Shown: in pieces, positions 1 to 13,578 of the stretch
How the letters are laid out: every line of letters starts with the position of its first letter
How positions within the stretch are numbered: the stretch's first letter is position 1
Assembly (NCBI RefSeq): GCF_002251755.1
Contig: NZ_NOXT01000114.1
Location: 1 to 64,000, forward strand
Origin: Sandarakinorhabdus cyanobacteriorum
GTDB lineage: Bacteria > Pseudomonadota > Alphaproteobacteria > Sphingomonadales > Sphingomonadaceae
DNA length: 64,000 bases
Reading direction: 5' to 3'
The notes under the pieces: generated by a model
What the model saw: only the letters and a program-made list of their open reading frames with translations
Database searches by the model: none
What the model was told of the DNA's origin: nothing
Position numbers and translations under genes: made by a program

Positions 1-28
1 GGCAACGCCCTGACAGGAAGGCTCATGA

Positions 29-2515
29 ATAAGGCGGGTCAACATCAAGACCCCGCGTCCGCTCGATCGCCCCGGGTTCAAGGGCAGCATCGCCGCCAAG
101 GGCATGATCGACAACCAGTTCAAGGGCACGTCGCTCACCCCGGAAGTGTCGGGCATCCTGAGCAAGACCTTTGCGGATGACAAGATCGGCATCCTTGTCA
201 CCGGCGTGTATCAGCGCCGCAAGGCCAGCCTGGCTCAGTTCAACGCCGGCTGGCGCGAAGGCTATCTGGGCAACGAGAACAACTGGGGCTCGCTGCCGGT
301 TGATGCCAACGACTGGCGCGGCAATTTTGCCAAGACCCAGAACCGCCCGGGCCCGACCGATGTCTATCAGGTCACCCAGAACGCCGGGTATGATTTCACC
401 GACATCGATCGTGAGCGCATCAACGGCCAGGTCGTGCTGCAGGTGAAGCCGAGCGACACGCTCGACCTGCTGGTGGATTACACCTATTCGCAGAACACCA
501 TCGATGCGCGCACCAACAGCATCGGCGTGTGGTTCAACCACAACAACACCAGCAGCAACTGGACCAAGGGTCCGGCGGCTGGCCCGCTCTTCTATGCGGA
601 AGAATTTGGTGCGGGCGAGGGCAAGGATCTGGCGATCACCGGCGCCGTGGCCGCCAACCGCAACATCAACCGCAGCCTGGGCGGCAATCTGAAGTGGGAT
701 GGCCCCGGCGGCCTGTCGCTGGAGCTGGATGTTCACCACTCCACCGCCGAGAGCAAGCCGACCTCGCCGTTCGGCAGCAACATCGCGGTGGGCAGCGCCA
801 TTTTCGGCGTGGCCAACCAGCGGGTTGATTTCCAGACCGACATGCCGGTGATTTCGGTGGCCATGCATCCGGGCGCCAATATCCAGGCCAGCAACATCCG
901 CCCGGCCGGCAACAGCTTCCGCAACGCCTACATTAAGGACACGATCAACGAAGGCTCGCTGCGCGGTCGCTATGATTTTGAATCGGACCTGATCGACAGC
1001 CTGGATTTCGGCGTGACCTTCACCGAGAACAAGGTGCGTTCGGCCTTCAACGTGATCCAGAACGACAGCTGGGGCGGCACGCTGAGCGCGGCGGACACGC
1101 CGGATGCGCTCTATGCCATCACCCCGCTGGCCAATCGCCTGGCCGGCATGGATGGCTCGCAATCGCCCAACCTGATCCCGAATTATTTCCAGGTTGATAC
1201 GGTTGGCCTGATCAACCTGCTGCAACAGCGCATCGGCATCTGCAATGCCAGCGCCGTGCAGGGGGCCTGCCTTGCCAGCTTCTCGGCCGCCGGTGCCACC
1301 GACCGCCGCATCCGCGAACAGACCTGGGCGCCCTATCTGCAGAGCACCCACAAGTTTGATCTGGGTGCCATGCGCGCCAACCTGCGCCTGAGTGTGCGGT
1401 ACGAAAAGACCCGCATCAACTCGTCGGCGCTGGTGCCGATCCCGACCGGCGTGGTGTGGGTGGCCGACAATGAAATGGGTCTGCTGGGCGGCAATGCCCA
1501 GGATTTCAGCACCCTGCGGGGCGAATACGCCAACTGGCTGCCGGCCTTTGATTTCGATCTGGCGCCGACCAGCGACATCCGGCTGCGCGCATCCTACAGC
1601 CACACCATCACCCGCCCGGATTACACCAGCATGCAGGGCGGCATCACCGTGGCCCAACCGCTGCGCCCGAACGGCGGCAGCACCGCCAGCCGCGGCAACC
1701 CGGGTCTGCTGCCCTACAAGGCGAAGAACATCGATCTGTCGGCCGAATAGTATTACGGCAAGGATAGCTATGTCTCGGTGGGCTTCTTCCACAAGGATGT
1801 GAGCAACTTCATCGCCAACACCACCACGCAGGGCCCGCTGTTCGATCTGCCGAACCCGGCGCAGGGTGCGGCGGTGCAGGCGGCGCGGGCGGCGCTGGGC
1901 GGCAATCCGGGCCAGGCCGCGATCCTGGCCTGGCTGGCGACCAGCAATCCGGCGGTCGTGCGGTTTGAAACCATCAACAATGTCCGCACGCCCACTGGCA
2001 TCATCGGCCAGAACGCCGATCCGGACGTGGTGTTCACCATCACCCAGCCGGCCAACAGCGCCCAGACCGCCAAGCTGCACGGCTTTGAATTTGCGGTGCA
2101 GCACAGCTTCTGGGACACCGGCTTCGGCACAATCCTGAACTATACCATCGTGCGCAGCGACACCCGCTATGACAACACGCTGCGTTACACGGCGACCCAG
2201 TTCGCGGTGAACGGCGTGTCGGACAGCGCCAACGCCGTGCTCTATTACGACAAGAACGGCGTGCAGGTCCGCGTTGCCTACAACTGGCGTGATGGCTTCC
2301 TGTCGGGCTATGGCTTCGATCCCTTCTATGTCGCGGCTTATGGCCAGGTCGATGTCAGCGCGTCGTGGGAGTTCAAGAAGGGTCTGACCGCGTTCGTTGA
2401 AGGCATCAACATCACCAATGCCGATCGGCGCGGCCACATGCGCAACAACAACACGGTGTTCTTCGCCGCACCGGGCTATGCCCGCTACACGGCTGGGATG
2501 CGTTACAGCTTCTGA
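29..2515 (+). pseudogene. TonB-dependent receptor, broken (5' part missing, in-frame amber stop)
   Basis: This encodes an outer-membrane TonB-dependent receptor of the kind used by Caulobacter, Xanthomonas and sphingomonads for sugar uptake. The readable part begins in the plug (VNIKTPRPLDRPGFKG at 38-85), runs through the long beta-barrel and ends in the terminal aromatic of MRYSF, as expected for Bam recognition. Two defects are visible. The frame is closed by TGA at 11-13 and 26-28, so roughly the first 130-150 residues (signal peptide, TonB box, early plug) are not in frame here. A TAG at 1748-1750 interrupts LSAE*YYGKDSYVSVGF, where relatives usually have a tryptophan or another aromatic; the same frame continues open to 2515. 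It heads the halogenase/SapC locus, so the substrate is probably a glucoside (inference). A sequencing error or a contig edge at base 1 could mimic both defects. Confidence 0.85.
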
Positions 2516-2601: not shown

Positions 2602-4167
2602 ATGGGTGTGACTGAGGACGGGGCATTTCGCATCGTGATTGCTGGCGGCGGCACCGCCGGCTGGTTGACGGCCTGCGTGCTGGCCGCGCGCCACCCGCAG
2701 CTGGACATCACCCTGGTGGAATCGCCCGACATCCCGACCATCGGCGTGGGAGAGGGCACCTGGCCGACCATGCGCGAGACGCTGGCCAGCATCGGGCGGG
2801 GCGAAGCCGAATTCATGGCCGCCTGTGATGCCAGCTTCAAGCAGGGCTCACGCTTTGATGGCTGGGTGACGGGCGCCGAGGATGACATCTGCCTGCACCC
2901 GTTCACCCTGCCGCCGCCCGGCAACATGGCGGCGCTGCTGCATGCCTGGGCAAGCACGGCACCGGCCAGGCGCTTTGCCGAGGTGATGACGGCCCAGGCC
3001 GCCGCCTGCGCGCAGGATCTGGCGCCCCGCCAGCGCGGCATGCCGGATTATGCAGGGGCGCTGAACTATGGCTATCATTTCGATGCCGGCAAATTTGCCA
3101 AGCTGCTCACCCGCCATGCCACCGGCCGGCTGGGGGTGAAGCATGTGCCGGCGGAGATTGTGGGTACGATTGCCGCCGACAATGGTGATGTGGCGGCGCT
3201 GGTTCTGGCCGATGGCCGGCAGCTGGCGGCCGACCTGTTCATCGATTGCACCGGCCAGGCGGCGCGGCTGATTGCCGGCCATTGCGGCGTGGCCTGGATT
3301 GACCGGTCGCATGTCTCGTTCAACGATCGGGCGCTGGCGGTGCAGGGCCCGGTGGCCCAGGGCAGCCCGATTGCGTCGCAAACCATCGGCACTGCGCACC
3401 GCGCCGGCTGGATCTGGGACATTGACCTGCCCACCCGGCGCGGCATCGGCTGTGTCTATGCCAGCCGCTTCATGAGCGATGACGAAGCCCATGCCGTGCT
3501 GTGCGCCCATGTTGCCGCCAAGGTGCCGGGCGCGGATGTGACGGCCCTGGCCCCGCGCCGGCTGGCCTTTGCCACCGGCCATCGCGCCCGTTTCTGGCAG
3601 GGCAATGTGGTTGCCGTGGGCCTGTCTGCCGGTTTCATCGAGCCGCTGGAGGCGTCTGCCATCGTGTTGATCGAGCTGTCGGCGCGGGCGCTGGCCGATG
3701 CCCTGCCGGCCAGCCGGGCCGCCATGGACATTCACGCCCGGCGGTTTGACGACATGTTCCACACGCGCTGGGACCGGATCGTCGATTTCCTCAAGCTCCA
3801 TTATGTCCTCAGCCGGCAGAGCGAACCTTATTGGCAGGCCCAGCGCGACCCGGCGAGCCTGAGCCCGCGCCTGGCGGAGGATCTGGTGCTGTGGCGGGAA
3901 CAGCCGCCATCGGCGCGGGATTTCCCGCTGCATGACGAGATGTTTCCGCCGGCCAGCCAGCATTATATCCTGTATGGCATGGGCCATGCCCTGCCGCCGG
4001 CGCCGCCGGCGCCGGCGATCGCCGCTGCGGCGGCCCGGCTTGCCGAGGTGCAGGCCCGCAGCCGCCAGTTGGGTGCCGCCTTGCCCGAAAACCGCATCTA
4101 TCTTGCCGCCGGCGCAGCCCAGGCCGCCTGTGGACCACACGCATCATGGCCAATCATCAGATCCTGA
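2602..4167 (+). CDS. Tryptophan halogenase family flavoprotein (first copy)
   Basis: This is a homologue of FADH2-dependent tryptophan halogenases, 521 aa. It has an N-terminal dinucleotide fold (IAGGGTAGW, residues 13-21), the IGVGEGTWP segment, and a lysine at residue 80 in ASFKQGSRF, where PrnA has its catalytic Lys79. A late [15 protein letters not shown] block carries the conserved glutamate. The WxWxIP signature is altered: WIWDIDLP has Asp in place of Pro. I chose ATG 2602 because GAGG lies just upstream; an upstream TTG at 2560 is less likely. It follows the receptor by 86 bases and overlaps the SapC gene by 22. Such genes are common beside TonB receptors in sugar loci of this group, and true tryptophan halogenation has not been shown for them (family knowledge), so the substrate is unknown. 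Confidence 0.85.
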
Positions 4168-4868
4168 ATTTTGAACAGCATGGTGCGCTACGCGTGCTGA
4201 CCGGCGCCGGGGCCGCTTTGGGCGATGCGGTGATGGCCTGTCTGGTGGTGCCGCTGGAATTCCGCCGGCTGGCCAATGATTATCCCATCCTGTTCCGCCG
4301 CGATGACGAAAGCGGCGACTGGTCGGCCCTGGCGCTGTTCGGCTTTGAACCGGGCGAGAATCTGTTTCTGGAGGGCGATCGCTGGCTGGCGCTGAACCGG
4401 CCGCTGGCGATGGCGGCGCAGCCGTTTCTGGTGGGCCGCACGGCTGCTGGCGAGGGCCCCGGCCAGGTGCATATCGACATGGACCATCCCCGCGTGTCGC
4501 GCAGCGGCGAAGGCGTGAAGCTGTTTGAGCCGGGCGGCCAGCCCACCCCGCATGTCGAACTGGTTGCCGACATGCTGGGCGCGCTGGATGAAGGCTATCG
4601 TGCCAGTGGCGGCTTTTTCGCGGCGTTGGCCCGTTATGATCTGATCGAACCCTTCTCGCTTGATGTCACGCTCGACAATGGCGCCATGCATCGCCTGGTC
4701 GGCTATCATCTGATCAACGAGGACAGGCTGGCAGCGCTTGAGCCGGGGGCGCTGGCCGAACTGCAGGCCGAAGGGCATTTGCAGCCGATCTACATGGCGT
4801 TGGCCTCGCTGGGCAATCTGGCCCGGCTGGTGCGGCGGAAGAACCAGTTGCAGCTTGGGGATGGCTGA
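4146..4868 (+). CDS. SapC family protein
   Basis: This 240-residue protein matches the SapC family, named after a Campylobacter S-layer-associated gene. It has the usual opening, in which a short N-terminal strand is followed by [19 protein letters not shown], then [13 protein letters not shown], and it ends in a basic [17 protein letters not shown] helix. No signal peptide or membrane segment is visible, so it is probably cytoplasmic. Its start overlaps the end of the upstream halogenase gene by 22 bases, and its stop lies within the first codons of the cupin-like gene, so the three are probably translated together. The biochemical role is not established. Its constant company with TonB receptors and halogenase-like flavoproteins suggests a shared task in glycan uptake or modification. 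Confidence 0.88.
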
Positions 4869-5883
4869 GGCGGCGATCCTTGACCGGCTGCCGCGGGTGG
4901 CCGAAGTGGCGGTGCCGGCGGCTGGCCTGGCTGACCGGTTGACCGGCGCCACCACGCCGTTCGTGGTGCGCGGCCTGGCGGCCGATTGGCCGCTGGTGCA
5001 GGCGGCCGGGCAGGGCGGTGCGGCGGTGCGGGCGCTGCTGGCCCGGCAGGCACGGCCGCGCGGATTTCCGGCCAGCATTGCCAGCCAGGCCGGCGACGCG
5101 CGGCTGTTCTACACCGATGCGATGGCGATGAATTTCCGCATGGACATGGCGCCGCTGGCCCAATGGCTGGCCGCGATGGCCGAAGCGGAGACCGATCCGG
5201 CGCAGCCGACGCTCTATCTCTCGTCCATCGACATGGCGGATTATTTCACTGGCCTTGGCGAGGCGCACCAGCTGCCGCTGGGGGATCGCCAGCCGCTGGC
5301 CAGCATCTGGATCGGCACCCGCACCTGCATCGCCGCCCACAATGACGTGCCGGAGAATGTCGCCGTGTGCGCGGCCGGACGCCGCCGCTTCACCCTGTTT
5401 CCGCCGGATCAATTCGCCAATCTCTATGTTGGACCGCTCGACAATACGCCGGCGGGACGGCCGGTGAGCCTGGTGGATGTCAGGGCGCCCTATCTGGCCC
5501 GGTTTCCACGCTTTGCCGAGGCCTTGGCCCAGGCCCAGGTGGCAGAGCTGGGCCCCGGTGATGCCATTTTCGTGCGGTCGCTGTGGTGGCATCATGTCGA
5601 AGGGTTGGCGCCCTTCAACGTGCTGGTGAATTTCTGGTGGCGCGACTGCCCGCGCTGGCTGGGCAATCCGGAGGATGCCCTGCTGCATGCCATTCTGGCG
5701 GTGCGTGATCTGCCTGACCATCAGCGCCGGCAATGGCAGGCGCTGTTTGATCATCATGTCTTTGCCCCTGATGCCGGGGTGACAGAACATCTGCCGCCCG
5801 AGGCGCGCGGTGTGCTGGCGCCCCTGACCCCTGAAACCGCTGGCCGGATCAAGGCCCGATTGCTGAGAGGATTGTCGCGATGA
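4861..5883 (+). CDS. Cupin-like (cupin_8 / JmjC-type) domain protein
   Basis: This 340-residue protein resembles the cupin_8/JmjC group of Fe(II)/2-oxoglutarate oxygenases. The metal-binding HxD motif is in IAAHNDVPENV (His160, Asp162), and a distal histidine lies in SLWWHHVEG (around 244-245), inside a FxLFPPDQ...NFWW double-stranded beta-helix core. I chose ATG 4861, which overlaps the SapC stop by 8 bases; a longer frame reaching 4738 is not supported. The stop overlaps the next start as ATGA. The family can hydroxylate proteins or small molecules, and the substrate here is unknown. Its position between two halogenase homologues suggests joint oxidative tailoring of one target (inference). 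Confidence 0.85.
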   Translation: MAEAAILDRLPRVAEVAVPAAGLADRLTGATTPFVVRGLAADWPLVQAAGQGGAAVRALLARQARPRGFPASIASQAGDARLFYTDAMAMNFRMDMAPLAQWLAAMAEAETDPAQPTLYLSSIDMADYFTGLGEAHQLPLGDRQPLASIWIGTRTCIAAHNDVPENVAVCAAGRRRFTLFPPDQFANLYVGPLDNTPAGRPVSLVDVRAPYLARFPRFAEALAQAQVAELGPGDAIFVRSLWWHHVEGLAPFNVLVNFWWRDCPRWLGNPEDALLHAILAVRDLPDHQRRQWQALFDHHVFAPDAGVTEHLPPEARGVLAPLTPETAGRIKARLLRGLSR

Positions 5884-7391
5884 ACAAGGCAGCTTCGCCC
5901 CTGCGGGTGGTGGTGGCGGGCGGCGGCACCGCCGGCTGGATGACGGCGGCGGCGCTCGCCCACACGCTGGGCCCGGTGATCGAACTGACGCTGGTGGAAT
6001 CCGATGCCATCGGCACCATCGGCGTGGGCGAAAGCACCATCCCGCCGATGCAGCTGTTCAACCGGCTCTTGGGCATCAACGAGGCCGAGTTCATGCGCGC
6101 CACACAGGCGACGTTCAAGCTGGGCATCATGTTCGAGAACTGGCGCGACGTGGGCCACAAATATTTCCACAGCTTTGGCACCACGGGAAAGGATCATTGG
6201 TCGGCCGGGTTCCAGCATTTCTGGATGCACGGGCTGACCCAGGGGCATGAGCATCCCTATGATGACTACGCGCTGGAACTGCAGGCGGCGATGCAATCCA
6301 GGTTCGCGCATCTGCCCGATGACCGGCTGAACTATGCCTATCAGCTCGACAGCGCGCTTTATGCCCGCTTCCTGCGCCAGCGCGCCGAAGCCGGCGGGGC
6401 CACCCGCATCGAAGGCCGCATCGCCCAGGTGGAGCTGAACGGCGAAAGCGGCGACATTGCCGCGCTGGTGCTGGATGGGGACCGCCGCATCGAAGGCGAT
6501 TTGTTCATCGATTGCACGGGCTTCCGCGCCCTGTTGATCGAAGGGGCGCTGCATGCCGGCTTTGATGACTGGTCGCATTGGCGGCCGTGCGACAGTGCCA
6601 TTGCCATCCAGACCAGCAGCGTGCGCCCCGCCGTGCCCTACACGCGGGCCATCGCCCATGATGCCGGCTGGCAGTGGCGCATTCCGCTGCAGCATCGCCA
6701 GGGCAATGGCATCGTCTATTGCAGCCGCTATCTGAGCCAGGAGGCCGCCCAGGAACGGCTGTTCGCCACCATCGAGGGCGACAAGCTGGTGAAGCCCAAC
6801 ATCATCAAATATCAGACTGGAGTGCGCCGCCGGCAATGGCACCGCAATTGCGTGGCGGTGGGCCTGTCGGGCGGGTTCATGGAGCCGCTCGAATCCACCT
6901 CCATCCACTTGATCCAGCGCGCCGTGCTGCGCATCTGCCGCATGCTGCCGGCCGGCCGGGTGAGCGAACGCGACATTGCCGAGTTCAACGAACAGCAGTT
7001 CACCGACATGGAGCAGATCCGCGATTTCCTGATCCTGCACTACAAGGTCACCGACCGGCGCGACAGCCCGTTCTGGCGCCATGTCGCCAGCATGGCCATT
7101 CCGGACAGCCTGGCGCACAAGATCGAGCTGTTCCGCGAGACCGGCCGGGTGTTTCGCAAGAATGAGGAATTGTTCGTCGAGAACAGCTGGGTGCAGGTGA
7201 TGATGGGGCAGGGGATCATGCCGCAATCCTGGCATCCGGTGGCGGCCAAGCTGCGGCCGGGGGAGCTGACGGCCTTTCTGTCGGGCCTGCGCGACAGCGT
7301 TGCCCGCACCGTTGCGGGCCTTCCCGATCATCATGCCTATGTTTCCCGCTATTGCGCGGCGGCCGAACCGCGTGACAACAAGGCGGCGTGA
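5880..7391 (+). CDS. Tryptophan halogenase family flavoprotein (second copy)
   Basis: This 503-residue flavin-dependent halogenase homologue keeps all the hallmark motifs. They are VAGGGTAGW near residue 12, GTIGVGESTIPP, Lys80 in ATFKLGIMF (the PrnA Lys79 position), an intact WxWxIP motif (GWQWRIP), and GLSGGFMEPLESTSI with the conserved glutamate. It is clearly paralogous to the first copy but better conserved. Its ATG overlaps the cupin-gene stop (ATGA), so it closes a four-gene coupled unit after the receptor. The product could halogenate or otherwise oxidise an indole or aromatic aglycone; no free-tryptophan role is implied by this context. Confidence 0.88.
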   Translation: MNKAASPLRVVVAGGGTAGWMTAAALAHTLGPVIELTLVESDAIGTIGVGESTIPPMQLFNRLLGINEAEFMRATQATFKLGIMFENWRDVGHKYFHSFGTTGKDHWSAGFQHFWMHGLTQGHEHPYDDYALELQAAMQSRFAHLPDDRLNYAYQLDSALYARFLRQRAEAGGATRIEGRIAQVELNGESGDIAALVLDGDRRIEGDLFIDCTGFRALLIEGALHAGFDDWSHWRPCDSAIAIQTSSVRPAVPYTRAIAHDAGWQWRIPLQHRQGNGIVYCSRYLSQEAAQERLFATIEGDKLVKPNIIKYQTGVRRRQWHRNCVAVGLSGGFMEPLESTSIHLIQRAVLRICRMLPAGRVSERDIAEFNEQQFTDMEQIRDFLILHYKVTDRRDSPFWRHVASMAIPDSLAHKIELFRETGRVFRKNEELFVENSWVQVMMGQGIMPQSWHPVAAKLRPGELTAFLSGLRDSVARTVAGLPDHHAYVSRYCAAAEPRDNKAA

Positions 7392-7420: not shown

Positions 7421-8500
7421 ATGGCGCGGCGCAAGCAGGCGGTGACGATCCGGCACGTGGCGGCCGAAGCGGGCGTGTCGTTGCAGACCGTCAGTCGGGT
7501 GATCAACAACGAGGCCAATGTCCGTGCCGAAACCAAGGAGCGGGTGCAGGCAGCGATTGACCGGCTGGGCTATGTGCCGTCCATCGCCGCCCAACGTATG
7601 AGCGGGTCGCGATCCTATCTCATCCTCGCGGTGAACGACCGGACACGCACCATCGCCGACTGGCAGGCCCGCCAGGGCACCGACTGGGTGGACCAGATGA
7701 TGCTGGGCGGCATGCTGAAATGTGCCGAGCATGGCTATCGGATGATCTTTGAACTGGTCGATACCCACAGCGACCATGTCGAACGCGAATTGGGTGCCGC
7801 CATTGCCGCGTTGCAACCCGATGGCATCATCCTCACGCCGCCACACAGCGACAATCCGCAAATTGTTGATTTTCTGTGCGAACATGGTGTGCCGTTCGTG
7901 CGCATCGGTTCGCAGCGGCAAGATCATGGCATCCCGGTTTCGATGGATGATGAAGGTTCCGCGCGCATTGCGACCAACCATCTGATCGCCCATGGCCACC
8001 GCCGCATCGGTTTCATTGCCGGCCCTTCTGATTATGAATTGAGCGGCTGGCGCGTTGATGGCTGGCGTGCCGCGATGGCCGCCGCTGGCCTCGACACGGC
8101 CGGCCTGCTGGATGCCGGGGATTTTTCCCACGCCTCTGGCCGGGCGGCCGCGCTGCGCCTGCTCGATCCGCCCGAACGGCCAACCGCCATCATCGCCAGC
8201 AACGACCAGATGGCGGTGGCAACGCTGGAAGTGGCACGCGAGCTTGGGCTGGTCGTGCCCGATGATCTGTCGATCATCAGCTTTGACAACACGCCCATCG
8301 TGCAATTTGCCCAGCCGCCGCTGACAGCCATCGATCAATCCATCGCGGCGACCGCATCGCTGGCGGTGGAGCTGATCATTGCCAGCCTGAAGGGCGATCC
8401 GGCGCCGGACCAGTCCCCCCCGGAACCGCCGCAGCCGGACCAGTTGCATGTTGTGCCGGCCACATTGATTCCCCGTGCATCCGTGGCTGCGCGTGGCTGA
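7421..8500 (+). CDS. LacI family transcriptional regulator
   Basis: This 359-residue LacI/GalR repressor has an N-terminal helix-turn-helix (TIRHVAAEAGVSLQTVSRVI, residues 7-26) and the hinge helix RLGYVPSIAAQRM. A periplasmic-binding-protein-like effector domain follows, including GHRRIGFIAGP and PDDLSIISFDNTPI. It lies 29 bases after the second halogenase gene and overlaps the MFS transporter gene. A LacI-type palindrome stands at 9691-9704 before the GH3 gene, so it probably represses this locus until a sugar or glucoside binds. The exact inducer cannot be read from the sequence. Confidence 0.93.
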   Translation: MARRKQAVTIRHVAAEAGVSLQTVSRVINNEANVRAETKERVQAAIDRLGYVPSIAAQRMSGSRSYLILAVNDRTRTIADWQARQGTDWVDQMMLGGMLKCAEHGYRMIFELVDTHSDHVERELGAAIAALQPDGIILTPPHSDNPQIVDFLCEHGVPFVRIGSQRQDHGIPVSMDDEGSARIATNHLIAHGHRRIGFIAGPSDYELSGWRVDGWRAAMAAAGLDTAGLLDAGDFSHASGRAAALRLLDPPERPTAIIASNDQMAVATLEVARELGLVVPDDLSIISFDNTPIVQFAQPPLTAIDQSIAATASLAVELIIASLKGDPAPDQSPPEPPQPDQLHVVPATLIPRASVAARG

Positions 8501-9650
8501 CGCCAGGCGCCTGCGCCGCTTTCTCCTCGTCTATGCCATCGCCTGGGCCGGCGTGGCTGTTGCCTACATGCCATTCCTCACCATCCTGTTGCCGATGCGC
8601 GTGGCCGGCCTGGCCGGCCCCGGCGCGGCCGTGGACTGGGTGGCGCAGATCAGCTTTGCCGGTGCCTTGGCAGCCAGCGCCGGCCACCTGTTGTTTGGTT
8701 GGCTCAGCGATGTGAGTGGCGTGCGCCGGCCCTGGATCTGGGCTGGCCTTGGCCTCAGTTGCGTCTTGCTGCTGCTGGTGCGTCAGGTCCACACGCTGCC
8801 GCTGTTGCTGGCGATCATCATTGCCTGGCAATTGGCGCTCAACCTGATGATGGCGCCGCTGGCCGCCCTGGCAGGTGATGTCGTGCCGGATGATCACAAG
8901 GGCATGCTGGGCGGACTGATGGCGCTGGCACCGGGCTGTGGTGCCTTGTCGGGCACGTTGATCACCTGGCCTGGGCTGGCCGGGGCGGATGGCCGGCTGT
9001 TGCTGGTGGCCGGGCTGGTGCTGATGTGCCTGTTGCCGTTGCTGCTGATGCCGCTGCCGGGCCCGGCGATGGCAGCCCCGGCCGGGGGCGCAGCGCCGGC
9101 GCGCAGCCGCACCCAGCGCATGTGGCTGGCCCGGCTGGCCGTGCAAATCGCCGAGGCGACGCTGTTCGCCTATCTCTATTTCTGGTTCCGCAGCGTTGAT
9201 CCGGCGATGACCGACAATCGCGTCGCCAGCCTGTTTGCTGTCCTGCTGTTGCTGTCAGCGCCCATGGCCTTGCTGGCCGGTCGCTGGTCTGACCGGCGGG
9301 GAGAGCCGCTCATGCCGCTGCGGCTGGCCGCGCTGGGATCGGCGGCGGGGCTGCTGGTGATGGCCCTGGCCGATGGGCTGGCCATGGCGGCCGGCGGCTT
9401 TGCCCTGTTTGCGCTGGCTTCGGCGAGCTTTCTGGCCCTGCATTCGGCCCAGACGCTGCGGGTGCTGCGCCGGCCTGATCGGCGCGGGCGCGATCTGGGC
9501 CTGTTCAACCTCACCAACACCATCCCATCGCTGATCATGCCGTGGCTCACCCTCGGCATTGTGCCGCGCTTTGGCTATGCCGGGCTGTTCCTGGTGCTCG
9601 CGCTGCTCAGCCTGGTCGGCGCTGCCTTGCTCAGCGAGCGTCGAGCCTGA
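8475..9650 (+). CDS. MFS transporter
   Basis: This 391-residue inner-membrane protein has about twelve hydrophobic segments and a major-facilitator loop after the second helix (LFGWLSDVSGVRRPWIW). A cytoplasmic linker containing GPAMAAPAGGAAPARS separates the two halves, and LFNLTNTIPSLIMPW lies in a late helix. The GTG at 8475 overlaps the end of the LacI gene by 26 bases; a GTG at 8493 is the alternative start. Context suggests import of a sugar or glucoside released by the locus, but this subfamily resembles no transporter of known substrate that I recognise. Confidence 0.85.
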   Translation: MHPWLRVADARRLRRFLLVYAIAWAGVAVAYMPFLTILLPMRVAGLAGPGAAVDWVAQISFAGALAASAGHLLFGWLSDVSGVRRPWIWAGLGLSCVLLLLVRQVHTLPLLLAIIIAWQLALNLMMAPLAALAGDVVPDDHKGMLGGLMALAPGCGALSGTLITWPGLAGADGRLLLVAGLVLMCLLPLLLMPLPGPAMAAPAGGAAPARSRTQRMWLARLAVQIAEATLFAYLYFWFRSVDPAMTDNRVASLFAVLLLLSAPMALLAGRWSDRRGEPLMPLRLAALGSAAGLLVMALADGLAMAAGGFALFALASASFLALHSAQTLRVLRRPDRRGRDLGLFNLTNTIPSLIMPWLTLGIVPRFGYAGLFLVLALLSLVGAALLSERRA

Positions 9651-9689: not shown

Positions 9690-9690
9690 T

Positions 9691-9704
9691 TGAGAACGTT
9701 CACA
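9691..9704. promoter_or_regulatory. LacI-type operator
   Basis: TGAGAACGTTCACA is a near-perfect 14-base palindrome (its reverse complement is TGTGAACGTTCTCA) with the central CG and AACGTT core typical of LacI-family sites. It sits 64 bases before the GH3 start and just after a candidate promoter. The repressor gene at 7421-8500 is the obvious partner. Confidence 0.65.
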
Positions 9705-9767
9705 GATTTCGACCGATGCGGGGCAAGCGCGCGGTTGCGGACGGCCAGCAACGGGCCGGGACGGGGG

Positions 9768-12185
9768 ATGGACATGCGCAAGGCAGCCTTGCTTGCAGGC
9801 TTGATGACATTGGTGGCCAATGATGCGGCGATGGCGGCAGAACCGGCGCTGGATCCCCAGCGCTGGCCGGCCACGGCCAGTCCGGCGGCGTTGACCGATC
9901 CGGCCACCGAAGCCCGCATCACCGCCCTGATGGCGCGGATGACCTTGCGGCAGAAGATTGGCCAGATGATCCAGGCCGATCTGAATGCCATCAAGCCGTC
10001 TGAGCTGAAGCGGTATCCGCTGGGCTCCATCCTGGCGGGCGGCAATGGCGGGCCCTATAATATCGAGCGTGCCGATGGCGCGACCTGGGTGCGGCTGGTC
10101 AATGAATTTCGGGCCGCTTCGGCCCGCAGTGGCGCCGGCATTCCCATCCTGTTCGGGGTTGATGCCGTGCACGGCCACAGCAATCTGCCGGGCGCCACCA
10201 TCTTTCCTCACAATATCGGCCTGGGTGCCGCCCGTGATCCCGATCTGATTGGCCGGATTGGCGCGGCCACCGCGGCCGAACTGTCGGGCGGCGGCATTGA
10301 CTGGACCTTTGCGCCGACGCTGGCCGTGCCCCAGGATCTGCGCTGGGGCCGCAGCTATGAAGGGTTCAGCGCCGATACCGGCATCACCGCCGCCTATGCA
10401 CGCGCGTTGACCCTGGGCTTGCAGGGGGTGCTGGTCGGGGCGCAACCAATGGCGGCCGACAAGGTGGCCGGCAGCGCCAAGCATTTCGTGGCCGATGGCG
10501 GTACCGACGGCGGCAAGGACCAGGGCGATGCCCGCATCGATGAGGCGACGCTGGTGCGCGTCCACGCCGCCGGTTATGCGCCGGCGGTCGAAGCTGGCGT
10601 GCTGAGCGTGATGGCCAGTTTCTCCAGCTGGAACGGCACCAAGGCGCACGGCAACCGCTATCTGCTGACCGACGTGCTGAAGGGCCGCATGGGCTTTGCC
10701 GGGCTGGTGGTGGGCGATTGGAATGGCCATGGGCAGTTGCCCGGCTGCACGGTCACCGATTGCCCGCTCACCTTCAATGCCGGGCTGGATCTGGCGATGG
10801 CGCCCGACAGCTGGAAGGGTCTGTTTGATTCGACCCTGCGCCACGTGAAGGCCGGCACCATTTCGATGGCGCGGGTGGATGATGCGGTGCGGCGCATCCT
10901 GCGGGTGAAGGCGAAGCTGGGCCTGCTCGACACGCCGGCAACCGCGCGGGCCGATCTGTCGCGCATCGGGGCCGCCGAGCATCTGGACCTGGCGCGCGAG
11001 GTGGCGGCGAAATCGCTGGTGCTGCTCAAGAACAATGGCGGCGTGTTGCCGATCAAACCGGGCGCGCGGGTGCTGATCACCGGGCCCGGTGCCGATGACA
11101 TGGCGATGCAGAGCGGGGGCTGGACGGTGACCTGGCAGGGCACAGACACCACAGCAGCCGATTTCCCCAAGGGCCAGACCATCGGCCGGGCCATTGCCGA
11201 TGCCGTCCGCGCTGCGGGGGGGCAGGCCGAGGTTGCGGCCGGCAAGGCAGGCGACGCGCCGGCCGATGTGGCCATCGTGGTGTTTGGTGAACAGCCCTAT
11301 GCCGAGTTTCAGGGGGATATGCCCGATCTGGCGTTCCGCGCCTTGTCGGGCGAGGCCGAATTGATCGCGGGGCTGAAGGCCAGGGGCATCAAGGTCGTTT
11401 CGCTGTTCCTGTCGGGCCGGCCCTTGTTTGTTTCCCCGCTCATCAACGCGTCGGATGCCTTTGTGGCGGCCTGGCTGCCGGGGTCGCAGGGGCAAGGCGT
11501 TGCCGATGTGCTGGTGGCGGGCCGCGATGGCCGTTCGGTCCGGGATTTCACCGGGCGGCTGCCGTTTGCCTGGCCGGCCGATGCGCGCTCGCCGATCAGC
11601 CAGCCGCTGTGGCCGCTGGGCCATGGCCTCAGCTATGCCAATGCGGCTGAGGTGGGACCGCTGCCAGAAGCGCCGGGTATTGATCTGGCCGCCACCGCCA
11701 GCGAGGATGTCTATATGCTGCGCGGCAAGGTGATGGCGCCGTGGCGGCTGGGGCTGGACAGCGCGGTGGTGATGAAGGCGGTTGATGTGTCGGCGCAGGA
11801 GGATGCCCGTCAGTTCCGCTGGAACGCGACGGGCGCCATCGCCATCGACGGGCCCCCGGTGGGCCTGACGCGGCATGCCACGGGCGGCTTTGCCCTCACG
11901 CTGGAATGGCGGGTGGATGCAGCCCCGGCCGGGCCGGTGACCTTGGCCATTGGCAGCGCCACGCTGGATATCACAGCGGCGGTGAAAACGGCGCCGGTGG
12001 GCGAGATCGGCAGCCTTGCCGTGCCGCTGGGCTGCTTTGCCAAGGCGGGTGCGGATCTTGCGCATGTCGGCACGGCGCTGCGCCTGGCGGCGCCCAAGGG
12101 CTTCGGCATGACCTTGCGCACGGCGCGGTTGACGCAGCCGGCCAACATGCCACCTTGCCCTGCGACTGTTTCATCGGGCCACTGA
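9768..12185 (+). CDS. Glycoside hydrolase family 3 beta-glucosidase, exported
   Basis: This 805-residue GH3 enzyme hydrolyses terminal beta-D-glucosyl residues. It opens with a signal peptide (MRKAALLAGLM...AMA before AEPAL), so it acts in the periplasm or outside. The N-terminal barrel carries GVDAVHGHSNLPGATIFPHN, the GSAKHFVADGG motif and the likely nucleophile Asp317 in LVVGDWNG. The second domain carries VVFGEQPYAEFQGDMPDL, whose Glu508 is the likely acid/base by analogy with barley ExoI. A C-terminal beta-rich region of about 170 residues follows, as in bacterial exo-1,4-beta-glucosidases. ATG 9768 (or 9774) is preferred; a TTG at 9690 lies inside the operator. It precedes the FucP-type transporter by 13 bases. 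Confidence 0.92.
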   Translation: MDMRKAALLAGLMTLVANDAAMAAEPALDPQRWPATASPAALTDPATEARITALMARMTLRQKIGQMIQADLNAIKPSELKRYPLGSILAGGNGGPYNIERADGATWVRLVNEFRAASARSGAGIPILFGVDAVHGHSNLPGATIFPHNIGLGAARDPDLIGRIGAATAAELSGGGIDWTFAPTLAVPQDLRWGRSYEGFSADTGITAAYARALTLGLQGVLVGAQPMAADKVAGSAKHFVADGGTDGGKDQGDARIDEATLVRVHAAGYAPAVEAGVLSVMASFSSWNGTKAHGNRYLLTDVLKGRMGFAGLVVGDWNGHGQLPGCTVTDCPLTFNAGLDLAMAPDSWKGLFDSTLRHVKAGTISMARVDDAVRRILRVKAKLGLLDTPATARADLSRIGAAEHLDLAREVAAKSLVLLKNNGGVLPIKPGARVLITGPGADDMAMQSGGWTVTWQGTDTTAADFPKGQTIGRAIADAVRAAGGQAEVAAGKAGDAPADVAIVVFGEQPYAEFQGDMPDLAFRALSGEAELIAGLKARGIKVVSLFLSGRPLFVSPLINASDAFVAAWLPGSQGQGVADVLVAGRDGRSVRDFTGRLPFAWPADARSPISQPLWPLGHGLSYANAAEVGPLPEAPGIDLAATASEDVYMLRGKVMAPWRLGLDSAVVMKAVDVSAQEDARQFRWNATGAIAIDGPPVGLTRHATGGFALTLEWRVDAAPAGPVTLAIGSATLDITAAVKTAPVGEIGSLAVPLGCFAKAGADLAHVGTALRLAAPKGFGMTLRTARLTQPANMPPCPATVSSGH

Positions 12186-12198
12186 GGGGGGAATCGCC

Positions 12199-13485
12199 GT
12201 GTCCATGCCGGCAACGCCGACCGCCACCGCGCCGAATGCCGGGGCGGTGATCCTTGATACGCGCCTGCAAAGCTTTGTCTTTGCGCTATTTTTCATCTTT
12301 GGCGGTATCACCAGCCTCAACGATGTGATCATCCCCAAGCTGAAGGAGCTGTTCACCCTCAGCTACACCCAGGCGATGCTGGTGCAATTCTGCTTCTTCA
12401 CCGCCTATGCCGTGGTCGGCATCCCCGGTGCGCGGCTGGTCAAGCGCATCGGATACATGCGCGGGGCCGTCGCCGGCTTGTGCCTGATGATGCTGGGCTG
12501 CCTGATGTTCATCCCGGCCAGCCAGACCGCGGCCTATCCGCTGTTTCTTGCGGCGCTGTTCGTGCTCGCCAGCGGTGTGGTGATCGTCCAGGTGGTGGCC
12601 AACCCGTTGATTTCCATGCTGGGCAAGCCGGAAACCACCCACAGCCGCCTGACCTTTGCCCAGGCGTTCAACTCGCTGGGCACAACCGTGTTTCCCTATT
12701 TCGGGGCGATCCTGATCCTGGGCGCGCTGGCCAGCCAATCGGCCGAGACGCTGTCGGGCGCGGCGCTGGATGCCTATCGCACCGCCGAAAGCCAGGCCAT
12801 CGTGAATGGTTATCTGGGGCTGGCCGCCGCGCTTGCGGTGGTGGCCGGCGTGGTCTGGATGTTCCGCAACAGCCTGAAGGGCGAACAGCATGAGGCATCG
12901 TCTGGCCTTGCCGGGCTGGATTTGCTGCGCCAGTCGCGCTTTGGTTTCGGGGCGCTGTGCATCTTCCTTTATGTCGGTGCCGAGGTGTCGATCGGTTCGC
13001 TGATCGTGTCTTATCTCAGCGATTCCAGGGTGATGGGCCTTTCGGGTGAAGAGGCCGGCAAGCTGATCGCCTGGTATTGGGGTGGGGCGATGGTGGGCCG
13101 CTTTGTCGGCTCGGCGGTGCTGCGGCTGGTGGCGCCGGGCAAGGTGCTGGCCTTTGTTGCGGTGGGGGCCATCACGCTGATCGCGGTTTCGACCCAGACC
13201 AGCGGCACGCTGGCCGGTTACAGCCTGCTGGCCATTGGTCTGATGAACGCCATCATGTTCCCGACCATCTTCAGCCTGGCCTGCGAAGGGCTGGGCCCGC
13301 GCTCGGCCGATGGGTCGGGCATTATCAATGTCGCGATCTTTGGCGGCGCGGTGATCCCGCTGCTGACCGGCTTCCTGGTCGATGGCACCGGGAGCATCGC
13401 CATCGGCCTGGCGCTGCCGGCGGTCTGCTATGCCATCATCGCGATGTTCGGTGTGAAGACCGCCCGAGAACCGGCTGTTATCTGA
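12199..13485 (+). CDS. FucP/GluP-type sugar:proton symporter (MFS)
   Basis: This 428-residue inner-membrane transporter belongs to the fucose/glucose/galactose permease group. It has twelve hydrophobic segments, and the N-terminal FIFGGITSLNDVIIPKLKELF segment, the FFTAYAVVGIPGARLV helix and the VQVVANPLISMLG block are characteristic. It starts with GTG at 12199, 13 bases after the GH3 stop and preceded by GAGGGGGGAA, so it should be co-transcribed and import the monosaccharide released by GH3. Glucose is the likeliest substrate from the pairing with a beta-glucosidase (inference). Confidence 0.9.
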   Translation: MSMPATPTATAPNAGAVILDTRLQSFVFALFFIFGGITSLNDVIIPKLKELFTLSYTQAMLVQFCFFTAYAVVGIPGARLVKRIGYMRGAVAGLCLMMLGCLMFIPASQTAAYPLFLAALFVLASGVVIVQVVANPLISMLGKPETTHSRLTFAQAFNSLGTTVFPYFGAILILGALASQSAETLSGAALDAYRTAESQAIVNGYLGLAAALAVVAGVVWMFRNSLKGEQHEASSGLAGLDLLRQSRFGFGALCIFLYVGAEVSIGSLIVSYLSDSRVMGLSGEEAGKLIAWYWGGAMVGRFVGSAVLRLVAPGKVLAFVAVGAITLIAVSTQTSGTLAGYSLLAIGLMNAIMFPTIFSLACEGLGPRSADGSGIINVAIFGGAVIPLLTGFLVDGTGSIAIGLALPAVCYAIIAMFGVKTAREPAVI

Positions 13486-13502: not shown

Positions 13503-13578
13503 TGGTGGAGTAGAGGGGAATCGAACCCCTGACCTCAGCAGTGCGATTGCTGCGCTCTCCCATCTGAGCTACTACCCC
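13503..13578 (-). tRNA. tRNA-Ala (anticodon CGC), CCA encoded
   Basis: Reading the minus strand, a 76-base cloverleaf forms. Acceptor GGGGTAG pairs with CTACTCC (one G-U), the D arm is GCTC...GAGC, and the anticodon stem CAGCA/TGCTG encloses loop ATCGCAC, giving anticodon CGC. The T arm has GGTTCGATTCC, and the genome encodes CCA at 13503-13505. It lies antisense just after the FucP-type gene. Confidence 0.95.

Follow-up and report, generated by a model that had tools for sequence, protein, structure and literature searches.

The 64,000-nucleotide stretch of DNA analysed here (the window) comprises positions 1-64,000 of the forward strand of contig NZ_NOXT01000114.1 from Sandarakinorhabdus cyanobacteriorum (assembly GCF_002251755.1). 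Near its start it carries four overlapping genes in the order halA, SapC, Cupin_8 and halB, the overlaps being 22, 8 and 4 bases respectively, and a TonB-dependent receptor gene lies directly upstream on the same strand with its stop 86 bases before halA (Table 1). These genes agree with the first-pass annotation of this DNA, which had described two halogenase homologues coupled to a SapC protein and a JmjC/cupin-like oxygenase beside a TonB receptor; all four are complete open reading frames that match the corresponding Pfam models. Comparison with other genomes confirms that the arrangement is beyond chance, as halA-SapC-cupin-halB occur in that order in 61 of the 80 relatives nearest by cupin sequence.

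Table 1. Positions of the four-gene unit, its receptor and the neighbouring features in the window
Feature	Position	Strand	Match or remark
halA, flavoprotein of the tryptophan-halogenase family	2602-4167	+	PF04820, 383.5 bits
SapC-family protein	4146-4868	+	PF07277, 204.2 bits
Cupin_8 / JmjC-type 2-oxoglutarate oxygenase, FIH-like	4861-5883	+	PF13621, 191.3 bits
halB, flavin-dependent halogenase family member	5880-7391	+	PF04820, 609.6 bits
TonB-dependent receptor, 3' part	43-2515	+	PF00593 on both pieces; TonB-Xanth-Caul type by relative L066
Terminal sequence of a multicopy element (insertion sequence-like)	1-38		40-base end at 7 places in the genome, at most 3 mismatches
LacI-type regulator	7421-8500	+	PF00356, PF13377
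MFS transporter	8475-9650	+	PF07690
GH3 beta-glucosidase type enzyme	9690-12185	+	PF00933, PF01915, PF18559
Glucose/galactose-type (GluP-type) MFS transporter	12199-13485	+	TIGR01272, 276.9 bits, over cut-off
tRNA-Ala	13503-13578	-	anticodon CGC

Relatives of the unit were collected with a cupin-alignment scan of 84,980 species genomes, which gave at least 573 confirmed relatives, and the best 80 were made into named loci. Since these were chosen by similarity to window-like cupins, they describe the near relatives of the window unit. The receptor is contiguous upstream on the same strand in 74 of them; out of the other six, two have the receptor about 1.1-1.2 kb upstream (L116 and L138), two lie at contig edges (L098 and L140) and two have no receptor in the locus (L145 and L146). 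The full quartet in the same order was found in Sphingomonadaceae, Caulobacter, Hyphomonadaceae, Lysobacter, Pseudoxanthomonas and Duganella, and the Xanthomonas version of the locus is without halA. Junctions are tight throughout, with median gaps of -1, 7 and -4 bases in 67 full quartets (60 named loci and seven loci of the survey described below). The commonest variant among the 80, receptor-SapC-cupin-halB without halA, has eight occurrences, one of them with a split halB. Rarer variants are receptor-SapC-cupin (two loci), receptor-cupin-halB (one) and the cupin alone behind the receptor (five). All five cupin-only genomes contain SapC, and a halogenase match is absent only from the genome of locus L154; three are Duganella genomes that hold two halogenases around a SapC elsewhere, and the genome of the Stenotrophomonas maltophilia locus (L150) contains a single strong halogenase match, close to a SapC, as well as weak pieces.

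Linkage was also counted in a sample of 147 genomes drawn from one order, probably the Sphingomonadales, where 96 genomes have a SapC match, 62 a Cupin_8 match and 104 a Trp_halogenase match. For this count the 65 strongest Cupin_8 matches were used and the last five SapC matches, which are fragmentary, were excluded. SapC lies within 5 kb of 32 of the 65 cupins, in 31 cases on the same strand; 27 of these 31 pairs have 69-122 bases between the domain matches and the other four have two halogenases between them. The order SapC-halB-halA-cupin was seen in four survey loci. Thirty survey loci with a same-strand SapC-cupin pair were fetched, and a receptor adjoins the block in every one: it lies upstream in the same orientation in 28 and is divergent in two (L069 and L070). 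The block contains halB in 28 of these loci and halA in 11. The first-pass annotation had named independent distribution of the four genes as an outcome that would speak against a joint role, and our partial check of this point gives a divided answer: SapC and cupin are strongly linked, whereas halA is dispensable and a receptor-cupin pair without the rest exists in the five loci above. The view of the quartet as one tightly coupled unit nevertheless stands, given the conserved order, the overlaps, the receptor linkage and the fusions of halA to SapC described below.

Three further observations concern the records in which such cupins occur. Cupin relatives are present on 17 plasmid records, the best being NZ_CP016453.1 at 481159-482181 (Sphingobium sp. 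RAC03), which overlaps a gene annotated as a SapC family protein. The locus in a record titled Bacillus sp. 2B10 (L096) is of the typical Sphingomonas form, so that the record is probably misnamed or contaminated. Another layout, seen in L071-L078, has two or three halogenase frames beside the same cupin type; SapC is absent, and most of these loci have more halogenases and a receptor nearby.

The same linkage is visible when the search starts from the receptor. With the receptor of locus L066 as the query, and scores taken for the top five candidates in each genome, 29 of the 30 receptors at 300 bits or more stand beside a SapC-cupin module (28 fetched loci, that of the query included, and the window). 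The L066 receptor reaches 604.5 bits with the TonB-Xanth-Caul model (TIGR01782, cut-off 310); the window copy itself was scanned by Pfam only. Among 14 further receptors at 205-264 bits, the fragment on contig C38 being excluded, seven have halA beside them, either alone or with SapC. Halogenases in general show a similar tendency, as a receptor was found in the 14 kb stretch around 18 of 20 sampled halogenases (one of the 18 just a fragment at the stretch end) compared with 2 of 20 control positions. The sampled halogenases are every seventh of the first 135 listed matches and hence high-scoring ones, the controls were chosen by hand in 16 genomes that only partly coincide with those of the sample, and some of the compared loci contributed receptors to the receptor model.

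Sequence comparison points to the receptor, not the glycosidase, as the constant partner of the quartet: the receptor is found in 76, the LacI gene in 61 and the GH3 gene in 48 of the 80 named loci, some of which are cut by contig ends. Correlation of distance matrices was discarded as a partner test because it is high for every gene pair (0.65-0.85 in 51 loci), LacI included (0.68-0.75). These counts bear on the possibility that the module tailors a small molecule, where the aromatic part of an imported glycoside, or an accompanying phenolic, would be halogenated and hydroxylated. The operon does run on into the LacI, MFS and GH3 genes, and BrvH, a relative of halB, acts weakly on free indole (PMC5945002, partial text). 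However, the receptor is constant and GH3 is not, pairs of a receptor and a cupin exist without contiguous GH3 or halogenase, and SapC has no obvious place in such a pathway. The genome of the window adds a further point. All four halogenases found in it lie in receptor loci, two in the window and two on contig C122, where the halogenases flank a LacI gene and a TonB receptor and are followed by two alpha-amylase genes (L038 8913-19846); a halogenase-receptor locus with amylases argues against an aromatic-aglycone pathway. The earlier suggestion that the genes tailor an aromatic aglycone is therefore not borne out, and small-molecule tailoring as a whole is, in our judgement, unlikely.

Motifs of the two flavoproteins were counted in 99 halB relatives above 700 bits, the window included, and in 75 halA relatives. 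The roles of these motifs are known from the halogenase literature. In halB, GxGxxG, K80, E338 and WxWxIP are each invariant (99/99), and its nearest solved relatives are 6y1w (639 bits), which we take to be Xcc4156, 9luq (537 bits) and 6frl (438 bits), presumably BrvH. The catalytic K80 and E350 of halA are kept in all 75 sequences and GxGxxG in 74, with one gap. All 75 have WxWD(I/V)xL instead of WxWxIP; where halB has EST, halA has an EASA-type segment. Because of the replaced WxWxIP we treat halA as a homologue with halogenase activity unproven. Its nearest solved relatives are 9ltb (684 bits) and then 2pyx (432 bits), and 5uao is related to both flavoproteins (178 and 186 bits). The flavoproteins may use halide in vivo.

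The altered motifs of halA are also what might be expected if the flavoproteins, halA for instance, were monooxygenases or sensors and the module oxidised its substrate instead of halogenating it. QhpG, a flavoprotein resembling flavin halogenases, offers a precedent as it dihydroxylates Trp inside a protein (PMC7876137, partial text). The two window flavoproteins match the QhpG model weakly (31.6 and 30.8 bits, cut-off 240), and against an oxidising module every halogenase motif checked is kept in halB; we give this account a low probability.

The SapC protein matches its family model over profile positions 1-220 of 220, far above the curated cut-off of 28.9 bits. Its AlphaFold 2 model is confident (predicted local distance difference test score, pLDDT, 96.4). 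Foldseek returned no match to this model at E 0.001 or better, the top hit of a second structure aligner covered 57 residues at Z 2.1, and PDB sequences searched by profile yielded no match (best E 0.68); this lack of structural matches does not prove that the predicted structure is a new fold. Two proteins (L198 9754-11739 and L200 4080-6083) combine halA with part of a SapC domain at the C-terminus, a fusion which makes SapC a likely partner of halA; both loci belong to the seven places with halA beside a more distant receptor.

Among solved structures the cupin is nearest to two protein hydroxylases, FIH (64 bits, E 1.1e-16, aligned over cupin residues 157-265) and JMJD5. The metal triad HxD...H (H160, D162 and H244) is invariant in 22 of 22 sequences. 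The same is true of N166, R175 and N257, which correspond to the 2-oxoglutarate site of FIH under the roles we presume for the FIH residues, with Arg standing for the Lys of FIH. The alignment suggests an FIH-like Fe(II)/2-oxoglutarate hydroxylase with a putative protein substrate. In a rough hydropathy check, the highest 15-residue mean at the N-termini of the quartet is 1.17-1.44, and 2.01 for SapC, all below signal-peptide strength. The four proteins are thus taken to be cytoplasmic, a location that stays provisional.

Taken together, we tentatively propose, at well short of even confidence, that the four genes form one cytoplasmic oxidative modification module acting on the receptor or on a peptide tied to it. 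Under this proposal halB and the variant halA, helped by SapC, would modify polypeptide side chains together with the FIH-like iron/2-oxoglutarate hydroxylase. The substrate would most likely be the upstream receptor before its export, with aromatic loop residues as candidates, or else the peptide tied to the receptor, and the modification would tune the binding of the carbohydrate taken up by the receptor. The sequences themselves show the genes, their coupling, the link to the receptor, the intact catalytic motifs and the fusion of halA to SapC; a joint action of the four on a single substrate, its nature as a polypeptide and its identity with the receptor are inferred in turn. The polypeptide step is argued by analogy, from the company of an FIH-like hydroxylase and SapC, from the peptide substrate proposed for halogenases of the BrvH/Xcc4156 type (PMC5945002 and PMC7336383, partial texts) and from the QhpG precedent. 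A more specific form is more doubtful still. It would have the two flavoproteins, a SapC adaptor and the FIH-like hydroxylase act on aromatic residues of TonB-dependent receptors, halogenating and hydroxylating them and so altering the binding sites of the receptors. The first-pass annotation had also mentioned a surface protein as the substrate, and this is the idea we favour, with the receptor as the protein.

Tryptophan residues of the receptor were examined as candidate sites. Linked receptors contain 1.29% Trp among their residues (n = 139) compared with 0.91% in unlinked ones (n = 42), values that are not corrected for ancestry. Trp occupies position 354 (L083 numbering) in 128 of 139 halogenase-linked and 9 of 35 unlinked receptors. 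In the scan of all halogenases, W534 takes first and W354 second place among column-residue combinations. W354 is seventh when halA-linked receptors are compared with unlinked ones, and falls outside the 14 combinations shown for other halogenases (halX) against unlinked. No residue convincingly specific to halA emerged when halA-positive and halA-negative receptors were compared, the best frequency difference being 0.58. In the predicted structure of the L085 receptor (pLDDT 83.0), W340, which equals W354 of L083, lies at the end of a long strand beside a long loop, and W520 and W917 are also near strand ends. Loop lengths, rather than coordinates, suggest that these tryptophans are on the extracellular side.

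Several observations weigh against the proposed modification of the receptor. The proposal is drawn from the genes, with no modification observed, and the cytoplasmic enzymes would have to reach an outer-membrane protein before its export. The WxWxIP fingerprint is absent from halA. One receptor of the clade (G093, locus L192) has LacI and GH3 genes without the module in the 16 kb fetched, and 7 of the 14 more distant receptors have no halA in the fetched stretch, two of these seven being cut by contig ends. As a halogenation site, Trp354 was rejected after an independent-pairs control in which 9 of 189 receptors were dropped (seven at contig edges and two not adjacent): 14 phylogenetically independent pairs of linked and unlinked receptors give a ratio of 7:2, which is surpassed by eight other column-residue combinations. 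All five receptors with only the cupin beside them retain the Trp, including that of the draft genome without a halogenase match (L154 = G151). The tryptophans lie at or near strand ends by long loops, and plain sugar-stacking residues would likewise be conserved at such places. Since ancestry confounds the enrichment and the residue persists with the cupin only, we count the receptor Trp as a lead only. Finally, the authors of the Xcc4156 study report just 26% identity to the peptide halogenase MibH and no clustering with it (PMC7336383, partial text).

The substrate could instead be a separate short peptide or surface protein, resembling a ribosomally synthesized and post-translationally modified peptide or an S-layer protein, with the receptor involved in uptake or display. 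MibH halogenates Trp only within its peptide (PMC5945002, partial text). The name SapC comes from the context of an S-layer protein. In the window, however, the gaps between the receptor and the four genes are at most 86 bases, so that there is room for a very short precursor at most between the five genes; precursors elsewhere were not systematically searched. Pfam scans of the operon proteins brought up no recognisable export gene, and we regard a separate peptide or surface protein as distinctly unlikely.

Four known systems resemble parts of the proposed receptor-modifying module. To our knowledge MibH has no receptor, SapC or FIH-like partners. It is a flavin halogenase acting on Trp in a polypeptide and is sequence-related to halA and halB (5uao is MibH; PMC7336383, partial text), but it acts in NAI-107 biosynthesis. 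Xcc4156 and BrvH (of the Brevundimonas type) are closest to halB and share its motifs; free indole is perhaps not the natural substrate of BrvH, whose gene is adjoined by a second halogenase (PMC5945002, partial text). These enzymes are treated singly, and TonB, SapC and cupin are unmentioned in the available parts of PMC5945002 and PMC7336383. QhpG shares with the window flavoproteins a halogenase-like flavoprotein sequence and is known to modify a protein Trp (PMC7876137, partial text), whereas the window proteins fall far below its cut-off and its substrate system is distinct, with a radical SAM partner. FIH and JMJD5 share the HxD...H triad of the window cupin, which differs in being bacterial and receptor-linked.

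Among the papers listed in a search of open-licence literature, none, judged by title and opening of the abstract, describes SapC, a tryptophan halogenase and a TonB receptor as one system. Two candidates for a prior account were set aside, as 'SapC' is the name of a clay in PMC4911050 and PMC11337851 concerns halogenase transcripts of phages and Colwellia (both partial texts). Halogenase, SapC and cupin are not mentioned in PMC8245568, nor TonB, SapC and cupin in PMC8269204. The protein families and the carbohydrate loci of receptors are each known already, and it is their combination as a system that appears to be new. Work on halogenases of the BrvH/Xcc4156 kind has treated them as catalysts and left their natural substrate open, to judge from the available text of these papers. 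Given that sampled halogenases of this order so often lie beside TonB receptors and that nearly every receptor of the clade has the module, the substrate question becomes testable by seeking the product on the receptor. If the proposal holds, receptor-linked flavin halogenases without a known substrate would be receptor-maturation enzymes and the module a new kind of bacterial protein modification, with a bearing on the tuning of nutrient uptake in oligotrophic bacteria.

The receptor gene of this genome appears to be damaged. It is split between two contigs, with the first ~174 codons at the end of C38 (L191) and the remainder at the start of the window contig; the window receptor is 66% identical to the L066 receptor and contains one TAG. 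Three of the seven places that match the window-end sequence are the first bases of contigs, and the end of C38 (L191 6770-6812) has matching terminal sequence at six places in the genome. TCAA at 39-42 and on the C38 side forms an apparent 4-base target duplication, and the element ends, by reading, partly match when inverted. On the simplest reading, with the junction read from two contig ends, a multicopy insertion element seems to interrupt the gene. The in-frame TAG (1748-1750) stands in a column that is Trp in 95 of 101 aligned receptors, that of the window included, and may be a second lesion or a sequencing error. The receptor gene is thus probably non-functional in this genome.

All four enzyme frames remain open downstream of this apparently broken receptor, as might be expected of passengers, that is, neighbours without a common substrate that are kept together by selfish linkage or by co-regulation with the sugar locus. 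The absence of halA from many loci and the varying gene order (SapC-halB-halA-cupin) point the same way. A passenger role would not readily account for a full quartet in the same order across the taxa listed above or for the fusion of halA to SapC, and we think it very unlikely.

Downstream of halB the window continues as a sugar locus. The nearest NCBIfam models of the GH3 enzyme are exo-beta-1,3/1,6-glucosidase and BglX, both under cut-off. Receptor, regulator, glycosidase and inner-membrane transporter stand together here, which is the gene content of the loci named CUT (TonB carbohydrate utilisation), and related genes are said to have been noted in Xanthomonas receptor loci. The window thus resembles the CUT loci of Xanthomonas and Caulobacter, which combine receptor, regulator, glycosidase and transporters. 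It differs from them in that halogenase and SapC have no occurrences in PMC1790865, a paper on such receptor loci. Another SapC gene of this genome (L039 11231-11998) stands in a fetched stretch of 19.9 kb that showed neither halogenase nor cupin; it is weakly like the module SapC (38 bits), as are the SapC proteins of many loci (24-41 bits). The tRNA-Ala gene follows directly after the sugar locus.

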